The position numbers and the translations under genes were made by a program. Shown here piece after piece: positions 13,085 to 60,282 of a DNA stretch of 64,000 bases. Each line of letters opens with the position of its first letter. Within the stretch, counting starts at the first letter, position 1. Under the pieces are notes generated by a model. It did not search any database and had not been told where the DNA came from. It saw nothing but the letters and a program-made list of their open reading frames with translations. The DNA comes from Haloarcula pelagica (GTDB lineage Archaea; Halobacteriota; Halobacteria; Halobacteriales; Haloarculaceae), in assembly GCF_030127105.1 (NCBI RefSeq), contig NZ_CP126161.1:2108001-2172000 (forward strand), in the 5' to 3' direction.

Positions 13085-13477
13085 ATGAGTGGGTTCCGCG
13101 ACGAGTGGGCCGGGCCGCTCGCGCTGGTCGCCGTCGGCGGGTTCTGCGGGGCCGCGTTCCGACACGCCATCGCCCTCGCGACGCCGGGGATCGCCGTCCT
13201 GCAGGACCCGATCACCGGGACACTCGCCGCGAACCTCCTCGGGAGCGTCCTGCTGGGCGCGGTCGTCTACGACGCGGGCGCCCGGGAGGTGTTGACCACG
13301 CGTGCCAGACTGCTCGTCGGGACGGGTTTCCTCTCGTCGCTGACGACCTACAGCACCTTCGCCGTCCAGACAAGCGGGCTCGGTCCCGAACTCGCCGCCC
13401 TGAACGTCGCCGCGAACTACGGGCTCGGCTTCGCCGCGGTCGTCTGCGGGCAGCTCCTCGCGGGGTGGCTGTCGTGA
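13085..13477 (+). CDS. crcB: CrcB/Fluc fluoride channel, first subunit
   Basis: A 130-residue, four-helix protein of the CrcB/Fluc family that exports fluoride by channel conduction. Hallmarks are GGFCGAAFRH in helix 1, NLLGSVLLGA in helix 2, and LVGTGFLSSLTTYSTFAVQ, which holds the helix-break sodium site and the pore phenylalanine region in helix 3. The stop overlaps the next crcB start by four bases, so the two are translationally coupled and probably form a heterodimeric dual-topology channel. No fluoride riboswitch is evident in the 48 bp upstream. Confidence 0.92.
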   Translation: MSGFRDEWAGPLALVAVGGFCGAAFRHAIALATPGIAVLQDPITGTLAANLLGSVLLGAVVYDAGAREVLTTRARLLVGTGFLSSLTTYSTFAVQTSGLGPELAALNVAANYGLGFAAVVCGQLLAGWLS

Positions 13478-13856: not shown

Positions 13857-14963
13857 ATGGACCCTGCCGAGCTCCGTCGGTCGATCCCGGCACTGGAGGA
13901 GTGTACCTACTTCAACACCGGCGCGAGCGGCCCGAGCCCGCGCCACGTCGTCGAGGCGGCGACCGATTTCATAGAACGCCACGAGTTCGAGGGCCACGGC
14001 CCACAGGACCCCTACGAGATGGGCTTTGGCGCGATCGATGCCGCCCGCGAGGTGGCCGCCGACTTCCTCGGTGCCGGGACCGACGACCTCGCGCTCACCC
14101 GTAGCACCGCCGACGGGATCAGTCTCGTCGCCGGCGCGATCGACTTCCAGCCGGGCGACGTGGTCGTACGGACCGATCTCGAACACCCCGCTGGGACACT
14201 CCCCTGGGACCGGCTGGCCGACACGCACGACATCGAGGTTCGGGTCGTCCCGACCGAGCGGGGACGACTCGACACGGCGGCGCTGAAAGACGCCGTCGCG
14301 GACGCGCGGCTGGTCGTCCTGAGTTCGCTCACCTGGACTCACGGCACCCGACTCCCGGTCGCCGAGGTCACCGACATCGCCCACGACGCGGGGGCACAGG
14401 TGCTCGTCGACGCCGTCCAGTCGGTCGGGCACCACCCGGTCGACGTGACCGAGTGGGGCGCGGACTTCGTGGCCTGTGCCGGCCACAAGTGGCTACTGGG
14501 GGTGTGGGGCGCCGGCATGCTGTACGTCCATCCGGATGGCCACGACCGACTGCGACAGACCCGGATCGGCTACCGGAGCGTCGAGGACCCCGGCGCCAGC
14601 GAGTACACGTACCACGCCGGCGGCCGGCGCTTCGAGGTCGGGACGACCACGCCGGCGCCCTACGTCGCGCTGGCCGAGGCGATCGAGACGATCGAGGAGA
14701 TCGGGCTCGATACCGTGCAATCCCGGGGTGAGCGGCTGACCGACCGGCTGAAAGCGGGGCTCGGCGACCGACTGCTGAGTCCCGAGGAGTACGAGTCCGG
14801 GCTGGTCACCTTCGCCGTCGAGGACCCCGAGGCGACGGTCGAACGGCTCGGCGAGGCCGGCGTCGTCGTCCGGTCGCTCCCCCACCCGGAGGGCGCCGTC
14901 CGGGCGTCGGTCCACGCGTTCAACACCGCCGAGGACGTGGACCGACTGCTCGACGCGCTGTAG
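13857..14963 (+). CDS. Class V PLP-dependent aminotransferase
   Basis: A 368-residue fold-type I enzyme of the class V (NifS/SufS/IscS-like) aminotransferase family. The PLP lysine is K211 in CAGHKWLLG, and the cofactor ring is held by D185 and Q188 in LVDAVQS. The start, YFNTGASGPSPR, is the usual N-terminal substrate loop. There is no cysteine-bearing mobile loop typical of cysteine desulfurases, so an aminotransferase, lyase or epimerase-like reaction on an unknown amine is more likely than sulfur mobilisation. It is followed after 38 bp by the NUDIX-eIF2B gene on the same strand. Confidence 0.87.
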   Translation: MDPAELRRSIPALEECTYFNTGASGPSPRHVVEAATDFIERHEFEGHGPQDPYEMGFGAIDAAREVAADFLGAGTDDLALTRSTADGISLVAGAIDFQPGDVVVRTDLEHPAGTLPWDRLADTHDIEVRVVPTERGRLDTAALKDAVADARLVVLSSLTWTHGTRLPVAEVTDIAHDAGAQVLVDAVQSVGHHPVDVTEWGADFVACAGHKWLLGVWGAGMLYVHPDGHDRLRQTRIGYRSVEDPGASEYTYHAGGRRFEVGTTTPAPYVALAEAIETIEEIGLDTVQSRGERLTDRLKAGLGDRLLSPEEYESGLVTFAVEDPEATVERLGEAGVVVRSLPHPEGAVRASVHAFNTAEDVDRLLDAL

Positions 14964-15001: not shown

Positions 15002-16306
15002 ATGACTCCCCGGCCGGTCGTCACCTGCTTCCTCCGAGCGGACGGCGAGGTGCTCCTGTTGCGCCGCAGCGACGCCGTCGGCTCGTACGCCGGCCGGTGG
15101 GGCGGCGTGGCCGGACACGTCGCAGCTGACGGCGAAGACCCGACAGCACCGGACCGGGACCCGGAGGCCGCGGCACGGGCGGAGATCGCCGAGGAGACCG
15201 GGCTGGAGCGTGCGGTCACGCTGGTCCGACAGGGCGAGCCGTTTCCGGTCGAGGACGACTCGGACCAGTGGCTCGTCTACCCGTTCCTCTTCGACTGTGA
15301 CTCCCGTGGGGTTCGGACGAACGCGGAGACGGTCGAGACGGCCTGGGTCCAGCCCCCGGAGATCCTCCGCCGGGAGACGGTCCCGCGGCTCTGGCTGTCC
15401 TACGACCGGGTCCGCCCGCGCGTGGCGACGGTCCGCGAGGACCGGACCCACGGCTCCTCGTGGCTGTCGATGCGCGCGCTGGAGGTTCTCCGGGACGAGG
15501 CGGCGGTCGTCGCCGAGGGACACCGGGCGGACGGCACGCGGCCCGAACGGACCGGCGACGACTGGGACGGGCTGGCGGCCCTGGCGCGGTCGCTGCGGGA
15601 CGCCCGGCCATCGATGGCCGTCCTGGCCAACCGGATCGACCGGACGATGCTGGCCGCGAGCGACGAGCGGTCGCCACGGGCCGTCGAGACCGCCGCCAGC
15701 CGCGCGGTCGAACAGGCCTGTGCCGTCGACCGCGAGGCCGCCCAGGTCGCCGCCGAGACCCTGCCCGAACGGATCGCGACGCTCTCGCGGTCTGGAACCG
15801 TCAGCGCCGCGATCCACGAGGCCGCGCCCGAGGCGGTCCTGGTCGCCGAATCACGCCCGGGCCGGGAAGGCGTGGCCGTGGCCGAGTCGCTGGCGGCGGC
15901 GACGGACGTGACGCTGACGACCGACGCCGCCCTGGCGTTCGAACTCGTCGACTGGGACGCCGAAGCCGTGGTCGTCGGCGCCGACCGAATCCTGCCCGAC
16001 GGTCGGGTGGTCAACAAGGTCGGGACGCGGGCGGCGGCACTGTCGGCCGCGGCCGCGGACTGTGCGGTGTTCGTCGCCGCCGCGAGCGACAAGATCGCTC
16101 CCGACGACGGCTACGACCTCGAACCGCGAGAGCGGACAGAACTGTACGACGGCACGGCCGACGTGGCCGTCGCGAACCCGACCTTCGACGTGACGCCGGC
16201 CGACGCGGTGACGGCGGTGCTGACCGAACAGGGCCGGCTTGACGGCGAGGAGGTCCGCGCCGTCGCCGCCGCCCACCGGGAGTGGACCACCTGGGATCGG
16301 TCCTGA
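15002..16306 (+). CDS. NUDIX hydrolase fused to eIF2B-alpha-like domain
   Basis: A 434-residue two-domain protein. Residues 5-150 form a NUDIX domain with the box spanning about 38-68 and ending AEIAEETGL; the usual arginine of the REuxEE core appears as alanine. Residues about 185-434 resemble the eIF2B-alpha/ribose-1,5-bisphosphate isomerase/methylthioribose-1-phosphate isomerase superfamily: VAESRPGREGVAVAESL, VVVGADRILPDGRVVNKVGT and a C-terminal PTFDVTPADAV. Such isomerases act on phosphorylated ribose, and NUDIX enzymes release ribose phosphates from nucleotides, so a linked nucleotide-salvage role is plausible. The order and intact frame argue for a genuine fusion. Confidence 0.85.
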   Translation: MTPRPVVTCFLRADGEVLLLRRSDAVGSYAGRWGGVAGHVAADGEDPTAPDRDPEAAARAEIAEETGLERAVTLVRQGEPFPVEDDSDQWLVYPFLFDCDSRGVRTNAETVETAWVQPPEILRRETVPRLWLSYDRVRPRVATVREDRTHGSSWLSMRALEVLRDEAAVVAEGHRADGTRPERTGDDWDGLAALARSLRDARPSMAVLANRIDRTMLAASDERSPRAVETAASRAVEQACAVDREAAQVAAETLPERIATLSRSGTVSAAIHEAAPEAVLVAESRPGREGVAVAESLAAATDVTLTTDAALAFELVDWDAEAVVVGADRILPDGRVVNKVGTRAAALSAAAADCAVFVAAASDKIAPDDGYDLEPRERTELYDGTADVAVANPTFDVTPADAVTAVLTEQGRLDGEEVRAVAAAHREWTTWDRS

Positions 16307-16495: not shown

Positions 16496-17242
16496 TCACT
16501 GCTCGTCCAGGGCGACCGGGATACCGGCGGCGGCCACGTCGGCGGCGAAGGCCCGCGAGTCCGCGGCCAGCGTCGAGAAGGTGTTGTAGTGGACCGGCAC
16601 CACCAGATCGGGGTCGATCGTCGCCGCGAGCCGTGCGGCCTCGTGGCGGTCCATCGTGAACCGCTGGCCGATCGGGGGACAGAACAGCGAGGTCTCGACG
16701 GTCCGGTGGCCGGGCAGAACATCGGTGTCGCCCGGCCAGAAACAGTGGGTCCCCTCGACCACGGCGAGGAAGCCACAGCCGAACCCCTCGGGGTGGTAGG
16801 GCGTCCCGTTCGGCCGGGTGTGTGGCCCGTCGGGTTCGTTGTACGCCGGCGTCGTCCAGATATCGGTGCCGTCGACGCTGAGCCGGTCGGTGGCGCCGAC
16901 CTGCCGGACTTCGTAGGGCAGATCCGACAGGGGGCGGAGGTCCCGTTCCCGGTCGCGCCCGCCGATTCCCTCGAAGGCAACGACCGTGGCGTCGGGCGCT
17001 GCGACCCGTTCGATCGCGTCGGGGTCGTAGTGGTGGACGTGGCTGACACAGACGATGTCGCCGTCGCGGGCGTCGTAGTCCCGCGCCGGCGGGTGGCCGA
17101 CGCCGCCCTCGAAGGGCTCCCACTCTCCGGTCAGGACGCCGTAGCGGCCCGGGTCCACGTAGACGACAGTGTCGGCGCCGGCGAGTCGGATCGTCGCGTA
17201 GCCGAGCCACTCGACGGTGAGCCCGTCGTGTCTGACCGTCAT
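16496..17242 (-). CDS. MBL-fold metallo-hydrolase
   Basis: A 248-residue metallo-beta-lactamase-fold protein. The start, VEWLGYATIRLAG, and the metal-loop region VSHVHHYDPDAIER give the HxHxxD-like site (HVHHYD). Later GDTDV and VPVHYNT supply the remaining ligands, as in the UlaG-like group. These enzymes hydrolyse phosphoesters or lactones; the substrate is unknown. It has full length and a clear ATG. The cyclase stump lies just downstream on the same strand, and the phosphate operon's last gene ends 49 bp upstream. Confidence 0.85.
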   Translation of the reverse strand: MTVRHDGLTVEWLGYATIRLAGADTVVYVDPGRYGVLTGEWEPFEGGVGHPPARDYDARDGDIVCVSHVHHYDPDAIERVAAPDATVVAFEGIGGRDRERDLRPLSDLPYEVRQVGATDRLSVDGTDIWTTPAYNEPDGPHTRPNGTPYHPEGFGCGFLAVVEGTHCFWPGDTDVLPGHRTVETSLFCPPIGQRFTMDRHEAARLAATIDPDLVVPVHYNTFSTLAADSRAFAADVAAAGIPVALDEQ

Positions 17243-19917: not shown

Positions 19918-22561
19918 AGTTCAGCTTCCTCCGGAAGTAGGTTCGTGCGGTGATTCCGACGGCGTAGAAGGTGAGAACGACCATCAGCAGGATGAACGCG
20001 GTCGCCCACCCCATCGAGGGGGAGCCGCTGACGCCGGCGGCGATCACTGCCCACACCTGGGTCGGCAGCGATGCCGACGCCGACATCAGCGCGTCGTTGA
20101 CGACGAAGGGCGGCCGGGCGACAAAGCGGAAGCCGTCGATCACCGAGACGGCCTCCGTCGAGTTCAGCGTCGAGCCAAGCACCAGGATCAGCGGGGCCGT
20201 CTCGCCCGCGATGCGGCCGACGCCGAGGATGACGCCGGTGATGACGCCGGGCATCGCTGCCGGGAGGACCACACTACGGATCGTCTCCCAGCGGGTGACA
20301 CCCAGCGCCGCGCTGGCGTCGCGGTACTGGTCCGGGACGGCCTTGATCGCCTCTCGCGAGGTGATCAACACCAGCGGGAGGAGCATGAACCCGAGGACGA
20401 GCATCCCGGCCAGCAGTGACTCGTCACCGCCCAGCCGGGGGATGAGGAACGCGGCCCCGAACAGCCCGAAGACGATACTGGGCGTGCTCCAGAGGGCGTT
20501 CGTGGCGATCTCGACCAGCGCGGTGAACTTCCCCTGTTCGGCGTACTCGGTGAGGAAGACGGCGGCACCGACGCCCAGCGGGACCGCGAACAACGTCGCG
20601 CCGACGACGAGCCAGACGGTGCCGACCACCGCCGGGAAGATGCCGCCGGGTTCGGCACCTAGCGGGATGTACGGCTGCATCGCCATCGGGAACGACAGCG
20701 ATCCACCGTTGGCGACCGAGACGCCCAGGACGGTGAACGGGATCCCGGTCGCGGCGACGTGGAGGCCCAGCAGGGCGGCGTAGCCGGCCGCCGCGGTCAG
20801 GCCGAGCCGCGTCTCGTCGGCGAGCAGTCGCCGCTGGATCGACTCGTCGGCCGCCCGGCGGGCGACGGTCGTCAGCACAGCGACGCCCAGCGAGGCGACC
20901 ACGCCCAGCAGTGCGATCACGGGAACGAGGTTCGCCGGGCCGACACTCGGGGCGACCGTCGCCGCCGGCTGGAGGAAGACGACCGCCGTCAGCAGGCCGA
21001 GCCCGCCGAACACGCCGACGGTGAACATCGGCGCGTTGTCGATCGCTCGGTCGGCGAGCGCGCCCTCGCCGGTCAGGCTGCCCGCGAGCGGCAACACCGC
21101 GAGTCCGCCAGACGCGAGCGCGCCGACGAACACGAGTGCCAGTCCGAGCGTCCCACCGATCGGGATGCCAAGCGGTGACTCGCCGACGATCGCCAGCAGG
21201 CCAGTCAGGCCCACGGTCACCGCGACCGCCAGGGGGACCGTCTGCCTGACCCGCTCGACCGCCTCGATCGTCGTCCCGACGTTCCGGAGGTTCCCGTACT
21301 GCCGGAAGAAGTAGACGAACAGGAGCAGCGCCGGCGCGACGAGCAGGAGTGCGCCCACGACCGGTTCCGGCGTCACCGAGACGGCCGTCTCGAGGGCCTG
21401 TTCCTGCCTGTTGACCAGCACAGTGTAGGTAAACGGCAGCGACAGCGCGCGCCCGGTTACCGCGACCGACGCGAGGACGGCCACGAGCGAGCCGACGCCC
21501 GCCAGCGGGAGGAGCCGGAAGAACTGCCGGGCACCGGTGTGCCAGTCGCTCGTCCCCGCGGGCTGGCGGGCGACGGCGACGGCGAGGACGAGCAGGGGCG
21601 TGATCGCGACCAGCGCCGCGAGCGCTCCGATCGTGAAGCCGTGGAAGGCGTAGGCCACGCCCTTGAGCGTCACGAAGACGACGATGGTGATCATCACCGC
21701 GACCATCAGGAAGGCGTTGAGGTTGATGACGAGGAAGGCACCGAACTCCCGACCCCGGGCACCGAAGCCCGCCCGGGCCTTCGCGGCCGCCCAGGCCGTG
21801 AGGATCGACGCGGCGAGGACGAACACCGGGATGACCGCGCCGCCCGTGAACCCGCCCGAGAGCGACTCGGGGTTCCACTGCCAGCCGACGCCGATGGCCG
21901 CCGTCGCGATGGTGACCCCCAGCGTCCCGACGACGATGGCCGTCGGGACCGTCGATCCGATGTCCTCCCGCGGGAGGACGGTGAGCGCGAACAGGAGCGC
22001 CCCGACCGCGACGGCGGCGACGAGCCACGTGAGCGAGCCGAACCCGAGCAGCGTCCCGCCAAGCACCGCGCCGATCGCCAGGCCGATCGTGCCGAACGCG
22101 CCGCCGGCGAGCAGGCCGGCGGTCATGTTCGGCTCGGTGTCGACGACGGCCATCCGCGAGGCGAGTCCGGCGACCGTGATGCCGACCGCTTCCAGGACGA
22201 GCAGTCCGCCCAACAGCGTCGCGAGCGTCACCGGGAGCGCGTACGCGGCGACGGTCATCCCGAGCGTGCTGACGACCAGTCCCAGTGCGATTCCACGGAC
22301 CCGCCGTGAGGTGACGGGGACGACGTTCGTCCAGGCGGCGAGCCCGGTGAGGCCGACGCCGCCGACGACGACGGCCAGCAACAGGCCGAAGAACTCGCCC
22401 AGACCCGCGCCGCTGGCGTCCAGAGGGACGAGATCGATCAGGGTGATCATCGCGACCGCGAACGCCACCACGCTGGTGGCGATGACGACATCCAGGCCGC
22501 GGTCGTAGTAGTTCGACTCCGCGCTGACCAGTCGGTTCTGGGCTGCGTAGGCGTCGCTCAT
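19910..22561 (-). CDS. pstA: Phosphate ABC transporter permease PstA with very long N-terminal membrane region
   Basis: An 883-residue membrane protein. Only residues about 626-883 correspond to the standard PstA permease, with [19 protein letters not shown] as the ATPase-contact (EAA) loop and [10 protein letters not shown] after it. The preceding 600 residues are almost wholly hydrophobic helices with short loops, far exceeding the roughly 280-300 residues of a bacterial PstA. The frame is open and in haloarchaeal codon use throughout, so it is not an assembly error by eye. The ATG at 22561 overlaps pstC in ATGA, giving translational coupling. The role of the extension is unknown. Confidence 0.9.
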
Positions 22562-59739: not shown

Positions 59740-60282
59740 CTACAACAGTCCCTCGGCCTGGGCGAGCAGGATACCCTCGATCGTGGCGTCGTTGGCCGGT
59801 TCGGCCCGGGCGACTTCGAGTGCGTCCTCGACCGGAACCGTCGTCACCGAGAGGAACTCGTTGTCGTCCAGATCCCGGTCGACGGGTTCCAATCCTTCGG
59901 CGAAGACGATACCCCGGCGGTGCCGGAGCACGCCGGTCGAACACCAGAACTCCTCCAGCAGCGAGAGGCCGCCGGCCGCGAAGCCGGTCTCCTCGCGCAG
60001 TTCCCGCTCGCCCGCGGTCGTGTAGGATTCGCCGTCCTCGACGATTCCGGCGGGTAGCTCCAGACACTGTTCGCGGATCGTCGGCCGGAACTGGTCGACC
60101 AGGACGAGTTCGTCGCCGGTCGTCGCCACGACGACGACGGCGTCTGGCAGTTCGGCCCAGTAGTAGTCCTTCTCGGAGCCGTCCGGTTGCCGCACGCGGT
60201 CGTAGCCGCCGGTGTACCAGCCGGTTTCGTATTCGGCAGCCGACTCGACGACCGGCCAGTCCCACTCGCTCGCGTCGGTCAT
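59740..60282 (-). CDS. NUDIX hydrolase (ADP-ribose pyrophosphatase-like)
   Basis: A 180-residue NUDIX protein with a complete box at residues 79-101 (GIVEDGE, then ELREETGF). The length and the upstream ELPAG turn fit the ADP-sugar pyrophosphatase group. It would hydrolyse nucleoside diphosphate-linked substrates. It overlaps the preceding small membrane gene by four bases, so both are cotranscribed. Confidence 0.9.

Follow-up and report, generated by a model that had tools for sequence, protein, structure and literature searches.

In this study, we analyzed a 64,000-nucleotide stretch of the Haloarcula pelagica genome (positions 2108001 to 2172000 of contig 1, NZ_CP126161.1; hereafter the window, in whose numbering features are given) and, within it, a plus-strand gene at 15002 to 16306 whose product joins a NUDIX domain to an IF-2B domain. 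The IF-2B domain has the fold of ribose 1,5-bisphosphate (R15P) isomerase and, judging from aligned residues, retains nearly all of the contacts to the ribose and the 5-phosphate; a serine takes the place of the catalytic cysteine, both here and in every family member examined. The reading that we favor, and to which we give about an even chance, is that the protein is a haloarchaeal ligand-binding pseudo-isomerase, that is, a sensor, with an accessory NUDIX domain.

The residues of the IF-2B domain were mapped to PH0208, the R15P isomerase of Pyrococcus horikoshii, by the family profile alignment and by aligning the protein directly to six R15P isomerases of haloarchaea, so that the pocket geometry given here rests on sequence alignment. 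In PH0208, catalysis is attributed to Cys135 and Asp204, and bound ribulose 1,5-bisphosphate (RuBP) is described as held by Arg22, Arg65, Gln166, and Lys215 at its 1-phosphate, by Ser137 and Lys240 at its 5-phosphate, and by Asp204, Asn214, and Lys215 at its sugar (PMC5789824). The window protein carries the motif TLSRSGTV (residues 260 to 267; 15779 to 15802, which, like all residues listed below, lies on the plus strand), in which S262 stands at the place of Cys135 and S264 corresponds to the 5-phosphate contact Ser137. In a nonredundant set of 143 members (reduced from 157 at 99.5% identity, some records having been reached twice, as also happened in an earlier 127-member set), position 262 is serine in all 143 and cysteine in none, and S264 is invariant. 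The catalytic aspartate is retained as D328 (15983 to 15985; 142/143 members, the remaining one being gapped), Asn214 and Lys215 as N338-K339 (16013 to 16018; 143/143), and Lys240 as K364 (16091 to 16093; 142/143), which leaves all of the side-chain contacts to the sugar and 5-phosphate (Ser137, Lys240, Asp204, and Asn214) in place. At the 1-phosphate, two of the four contacts are retained, R202 for Arg65 (15605 to 15607; 143/143) and K339, and two are changed, with H150 for Arg22 (15449 to 15451; His in 135/143) and E289 for Gln166 (15866 to 15868; Glu in 143/143). All six of the haloarchaeal R15P isomerases compared, which are top-scoring and mutually close, have Cys, Arg, and Gln at positions 262, 150, and 289, and Arg190 of the AMP site of PH0208 reads in the alignment as Ala312 in the window protein. 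Eighty of the members are the best 80 of 501 confirmed loci, and hence skewed to near relatives, and were scanned for with the patterns RALEVLRD and DGxVNKxGT; because the latter contains NK, the invariance of N338 and K339 is partly selected for, and S262, S264, E289, D328, and K364 belong to neither pattern.

The fold and the family of this domain have to be told apart. A single open reading frame of 434 amino acids, from an ATG start to a TGA stop, encodes the NUDIX domain (residues 3 to 128; 15008 to 15385; PF00293, E = 3.7e-11, 43.6 bits for a cutoff of 21.1) and the R15P-isomerase-like IF-2B domain (residues 149 to 413; 15446 to 16240; PF01008, E = 4.4e-45, 154.5 bits for a cutoff of 22.4), which bears out the fusion claimed in a first-pass annotation of this DNA. 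The fusion is genuine, and neither a chance event nor an assembly artifact, because two-domain relatives occur in dozens of genomes, both domains are under purifying selection (omega of about 0.2 each against two near relatives), and the whole chain is modeled with confidence: the AlphaFold2 model, built from a 35-row alignment, has a mean predicted local distance difference test score of 94.3 and a predicted template modeling score of 0.92. Its closest structures are R15P isomerases, with 3a11_F (E = 1.4e-19) and 5yfs_A (E = 1.9e-19) leading in Foldseek, and 5yfs_A, a complex of the C135S form with R15P (Z = 32.9, root mean square deviation 2.7, 288 residues aligned), and 3vm6_A (Z = 32.9, 2.6, 289 residues) jointly leading in VIA-align, followed there by 5yfx (32.8), wild-type 5yfj_A with RuBP (32.8), and 5yft (32.7). 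Further down come apo 3a11_A (29.1), RuBP-bound 3a9c_C (28.8), MtnA-type enzymes (about 24 to 28), and eIF2B chains from fungal and human complexes (20.7 to 28.2); the 50 matches listed per fold search comprise IF-2B and NUDIX relatives only, a limited list that says nothing about similarity to other folds. In the family profile alignment, too, S262 falls on residue 135 and D328 on residue 204 of the PH0208 chains, and the top PDB matches of this profile are two Cys-to-Ser forms, 5yfs (E = 3.4e-36) and 3vm6 (E = 4e-36; taken as such a form from the THS motif in its alignment), with wild-type chains slightly behind (3.6e-35 and 4.3e-35). The fusion protein nonetheless fails the R15P isomerase model TIGR00511, scoring 85.2 bits (86.2 in the genome search) for a cutoff of 314.1. 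The label "ribose-isomerase-like" attached to the second domain is thus valid for the fold and not for membership in the R15P isomerase family.

What a serine at this position would do is suggested by PH0208 itself, whose C135S variant is reported to have no activity and yet to bind R15P and RuBP with dissociation constants of 13.8 uM and 7.5 uM, R15P binding being reported absent in C135A (PMC5789824). The first-pass annotation had proposed to see whether the catalytic cysteine and aspartate align and had named the loss of both, together with an absence of nucleotide hydrolysis, as refuting its proposal; the aspartate is there and only the cysteine is gone, but in PH0208 the C135S change by itself is reported to be inactivating. 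Taken with the otherwise intact pocket, it predicts binding without turnover in this natural Cys-to-Ser family, that is, an IF-2B domain that would bind a ribose phosphate without isomerizing it. Because the 1-phosphate contacts are altered, the expected ligand would carry a 5-phosphate but lack a simple 1-phosphate, as has been argued for eIF2B-alpha (PMC5789824), so that a monophosphate or a nucleotide appears more likely than R15P. eIF2B-alpha has likewise lost the catalytic cysteine, kept the sugar and 5-phosphate contacts, and changed the 1-phosphate site (PMC5789824, PMC8187479), and sugar phosphates are reported to bind in its ancestral site and to promote assembly (PMC8187479). By analogy with sugar-phosphate-occupied eIF2B-alpha, ligand binding in the haloarchaeal protein may be read out by its oligomeric state or by partner contacts. 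The two systems differ in that the cysteine became alanine (human) or glycine (S. pombe) in eIF2B-alpha and serine in the fusion family, in that the human sugar contact Glu198 maps, by our own mapping, to the position where the fusion family retains the catalytic aspartate, and in the NUDIX domain fused in the haloarchaeal proteins. To our knowledge, archaea have no catalytic eIF2B subunits. Searches of the open-licence PMC literature turned up neither a description of the Cys-to-Ser change nor any biochemistry of the fusion.

The NUDIX domain is more variable. Its box in the window protein, DPEAAARAEIAEETGL (residues 53 to 68; 15158 to 15205, plus strand), departs from the canonical GX5EX7REUXEEXGU by an altered spacing, the loop ahead of it being longer in the alignment than in relatives, and by Ala60 at the core arginine, as the first-pass annotation had correctly stated; Glu61, Glu64, and Glu65 are present. 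This R-to-A change is one of several replacements, since the canonical arginine position holds Ala in 38, Arg in 37, Val in 19, Glu in 16, and Thr in 9 of the 143 members; the strict box is found in 2 of them and EUxEExG in 102. Noncanonical boxes are described as common among characterized NUDIX proteins (PMC5389931). All three glutamates are retained in 105 members. Among the other 38, L113 and L045 look interrupted rather than reduced, because their NUDIX similarity lies in a different reading frame from the IF-2B part; without these two, at least one glutamate is missing in 36 of 141 members (all three in 19, two in 11, and one in 6), although the box columns are hard to place with certainty where the NUDIX sequence is worn. 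The eight-residue IF-2B pocket is complete in 35 of these 36, the exception being gapped at D328. On a quick IQ-TREE phylogeny (LG+G4, SH-aLRT; 135 rows with five outgroup rows, of which L003 lacks its start), where the outgroup is set apart from the family with a support of 100, keeping or losing the glutamates amounts to approximately 18 changes, 11 of them forced by starred branches, or 19 and 12 if L113 and L045 are included. A tblastn search with eight intact members (E of 1e-4) detected no NUDIX similarity in five of the 38 (L046, L048, L152, L168, and L169), and in the remainder the NUDIX sequence is still recognizable.

Selection on the two domains was compared by pairwise Nei-Gojobori omega. 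Between the window gene and L005, its nearest relative, in which E65 is lost, omega is 0.18 for NUDIX and 0.20 for IF-2B, and between the window gene and L006 it is 0.22 and 0.24. Among seven pairs in which both members have a worn box, NUDIX omega is 0.35 to 0.65 in six and 0, with no amino acid change, in the seventh (L149/L150), and IF-2B omega is 0.14 to 0.47 in all seven; in the pair L167/L168, which is without detectable NUDIX (L167 being the same gene as L048), IF-2B omega is 0.116. These values speak against calling the NUDIX domain dead, and in the window gene it is as constrained as its IF-2B partner. We regard the NUDIX domain as an accessory part that has its metal-binding glutamates in most members: in the window lineage, where it is under selection, it may cleave or bind a nucleoside-diphosphate compound, such as ADP-ribose, that is related to the IF-2B ligand, and in glutamate-lacking members with a recognizable NUDIX it could have a nonhydrolytic role, in binding or in structure. 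In fold it is similar to 2fkb (Z = 16.7), to the ADP-ribose-bound NUDIX domain of Shewanella NrtR (3gz8, 16.6), and to 3n77 (16.5), which are tied. NrtR differs in being a transcription factor that has a DNA-binding domain of its own, whereas most fusion members have retained the hydrolase glutamates. The first-pass annotation had also raised a regulatory NUDIX sensor for the isomerase. A sensor role is a live possibility, but with NUDIX as the sensor it is less likely that way round, because NUDIX glutamates get lost while the IF-2B pocket stays. NUDIX matches in the host genome number 15, including a separate second one in the window at about 59794 to 60144 on the minus strand (contig 1, 2167794 to 2168144).

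The nearest named records of the fusion protein are mostly Haloarcula and Halomicroarcula, at 63 to 72% identity. A single-protein search gave matches in 56 of 60 genomes, the weak ones being paralogues, and a family profile (A1, built from 21 rows) matched all 292 sampled genomes of the class in two separate groups, a strong one of 233 (E of 1e-81 or better), which is the family, and a weak one of 59 (1e-28 to 1e-46), which are paralogues. The 59 genomes without the family were read by hand off these bimodal E values, with their gap between 1e-46 and 1e-81, and 29 of them fall in one genus (g8). Of 392 genomes sampled across the phylum, 69 matched at an E of 1e-48 or below, all within the same order or closer; as far as sampled, the family is widespread among haloarchaea and rare elsewhere. 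It is mostly single copy, G112 having two copies. Of 37 family match rows, 30 were taken as loci, the omitted ones being the second copy of G112, G225, G092, G111, G167, and two pieces in G190. The gene is in two pieces or frames, as if interrupted, in G092 (353796 to 355250), G111 (106266 to 107494), and G190 (20786 to 22044), on contig 1 in each genome. Close relatives also occur in bacterial-named records, namely Gammaproteobacteria metagenome-assembled genomes (L076, L078, and L082) and Salinivenus/Salinibacter (L100, L115, and L129), which suggests gene transfer or, for the metagenome-assembled genomes, misbinned contigs.

The family also does not follow the enzyme that it resembles. R15P isomerase scores over the TIGR00511 cutoff in 190 of the 292 class genomes; family and isomerase occur together in 140, the family only in 93, the isomerase only in 50, and neither in 9 (counts uncorrected for kinship), and we rejected a tie between the two. 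Profile searches of the host genome (4.46 Mb, four contigs, 99.96% complete) found no R15P isomerase over the TIGR00511 cutoff and no match to the large chain of ribulose-1,5-bisphosphate carboxylase/oxygenase (RuBisCO). The host has three PF01008 genes, the fusion and two further genes, L001 (contig 1, 3385338 to 3386141) and L003 (2458495 to 2459283), and none of the three exceeds that cutoff; in L001 and L003 a glutamate occupies the place of the catalytic cysteine (motifs THEYSSTV and THENSSTV), which makes them a second kind of Cys-less paralogue. The RuBisCO large chain was found in 11 of 41 genomes searched, five of them of the same genus as the host, so the pathway is patchy within the genus. 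In four of these five congeners (G002, G008, G010, and G024), the RuBisCO match has an IF-2B match no more than about 5 kb away, and because of this proximity some congeners seem to carry the ordinary pathway, in which the isomerase is a protein of its own. Haloarchaeal pentose bisphosphate pathways are indeed described as using a separate R15P isomerase (PMC9700705).

The NUDIX-IF-2B architecture is already known in haloarchaea from the HVO_1934 family. HVO_1934 of Haloferax volcanii, a 43.2-kDa "NUDIX family hydrolase/eIF-2B domain protein" (aIF2Bsu) (PMC8576121), shares the domain pair with the window protein, which fits this family in having NUDIX and then IF-2B in one chain and a serine-containing motif of the TLSRSGTV type. 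It is likely the orthologue of the window gene, as inferred from the domain pair and from the mostly single copy per genome. The gene has previously been deleted and the protein tagged (PMC3828320, PMC8576121). The double mutant with HVO_2706 is described in the text as growing like the wild type, yet the legend of Figure 6 in the same paper contradicts this by filing complex, sucrose, and xylose media under phenotypic differences of the double mutant (PMC3828320).

Several observations weigh against the ligand-binding pseudo-isomerase. The family gene is absent from 59 of the 292 class genomes, which makes its role dispensable in those lineages, and no conserved operon partner was found across the 81 loci compared. 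In the published accounts, single deletions of HVO_1934 and HVO_2706 are given as lacking a phenotype in 12 conditions (PMC3828320), and HVO_1934 had few copurifying factors, with one or two archaeal initiation factor (aIF) interactions (PMC8576121). The fold ranking does not track ligand state, as RuBP-bound 3a9c scores about the same as apo 3a11, and in the window lineage the NUDIX domain is as constrained as the IF-2B domain, which is unexpected for a mere accessory. Furthermore, the ligand, output, and NUDIX activity are parts of this reading that we infer, and the invariance of S262, E289, D328, and K339 would be equally expected of an active site with a new chemistry. The last point opens the main and serious rival, which we nevertheless consider rather unlikely: a retooled enzyme, in which the IF-2B domain actively isomerizes another sugar phosphate between aldose and ketose (or acts on it as a lyase or epimerase), with S262 and D328, together with E289 and H150, which are specific to the family, replacing the cysteine chemistry and NUDIX supplying or trimming the substrate. 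The replaced residues are invariant or nearly so, beyond what simple catalytic loss needs, and the pocket is intact in all but one of the 36 members whose NUDIX glutamates are gone. Against such an enzyme stand the inactivity reported for C135S in PH0208 (PMC5789824) and the cysteine itself, present in six of six haloarchaeal isomerases and in none of the 143 family members.

The other readings fare worse. A protein working chiefly as a NUDIX hydrolase, with IF-2B as no more than an oligomerization scaffold, would agree with the equal constraint on the two domains in the window lineage; we hold this improbable, since a scaffold needs no invariant pocket residues, whereas the IF-2B pocket is retained where glutamates are repeatedly lost, or NUDIX is undetectable as in five members, and even the nearest relative L005 is without one glutamate. 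A role in translation initiation as a regulatory subunit of archaeal aIF2B, after an earlier annotation of HVO_1934, is similarly hard to credit. The protein has the IF-2B fold of such subunits (PF01008) and eIF2B chains are among its fold matches, and HVO_1934 was co-isolated when an RNA polymerase B subunit served as bait (PMC8576121), but the single and double deletions are reported viable, which argues against an initiation role (PMC3828320), and its one or two aIF interactions compare with ten aIFs co-isolated with HVO_0966 (PMC8576121). Least credible is the direct two-step route of the first-pass annotation, in which NUDIX frees a ribose phosphate that the fused isomerase passes on to RuBP and RuBisCO. 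Domain order and folds are compatible with it, the NUDIX glutamates are intact in 105 of 143 members, and five genomes of the same genus have RuBisCO, but ADP-ribose hydrolysis by NUDIX yields ribose 5-phosphate and not R15P, every member examined has Ser for Cys, and 93 of the 102 class genomes that lack R15P isomerase nevertheless have the family. The host, with neither that enzyme over its cutoff nor a RuBisCO match, has no visible RuBisCO route to feed, and we regard the two-step route as unlikely and already largely refuted.

The neighborhood of the gene offers little guidance. Upstream, a class V aminotransferase (13857 to 14963, plus strand; PF00266, E = 6.8e-59) ends 38 bases before the fusion gene; its top NCBIfam match is the SufS family, under that family's cutoff. 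Downstream lies a metallo-beta-lactamase-fold protein on the opposite strand (16496 to 17242, minus strand; PF13483, E = 2e-16). Neighbors were tabulated at 81 loci (80 named ones and the window, with short flanks at some), and names other than those of the two window genes were recognized by eye, without a profile search. The aminotransferase is found at 11 loci, all of them Haloarcula or Halomicroarcula records or the window, and the metallo-beta-lactamase-fold gene at 14; a D-2-hydroxyacid-dehydrogenase-like gene lies downstream at 36, a small phosphoesterase-like gene lies divergently upstream at 34, at loci outside Haloarcula (e.g., L085, 3274 to 3777, and L104, 3385 to 3885, both minus strand), and CofE-like and LLM-oxidoreductase-like genes are each found at 30. 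At 24 loci, none of phosphoesterase, CofE, LLM, and aminotransferase is beside the family gene. As neighbors vary in this way, an operon clue to function was dropped. Further upstream, the window has a CrcB gene (Pfam CRCB; 13085 to 13477, plus strand) and, in another frame up to 13818, a stretch that by eye resembles CrcB, an arrangement like that of paired fluoride-channel genes.

Compared with the R15P isomerases TK0185 and PH0208, the window protein shares the fold (Z up to 32.9), the catalytic aspartate, and the sugar and 5-phosphate contacts, but differs in Ser for Cys, His for Arg22, Glu for Gln166, and Ala312 for Arg190. We speculate, with more doubt than conviction, that haloarchaea independently converted an enzyme of the R15P isomerase type into a sugar-phosphate or nucleotide sensor through the Cys-to-Ser change and joined this sensor to a NUDIX domain, which would produce, break down, or sense a related nucleotide, in an archaeal parallel to the eIF2B-alpha switch. 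Haloarchaeal genomes have several IF-2B-type genes each, three in the host, and whether these act as translation factors or as metabolic enzymes is disputed. Here, a whole family has a fixed substitution that the laboratory has characterized as enzyme-killing, together with an intact pocket, which makes the ligand question testable. It also corrects an annotation trap, as "ribose-1,5-bisphosphate isomerase-like" should not be taken here to mean a RuBisCO-linked enzyme. If ligand binding holds true, eIF2B-alpha would not be the sole case of this enzyme fold turned metabolite sensor.

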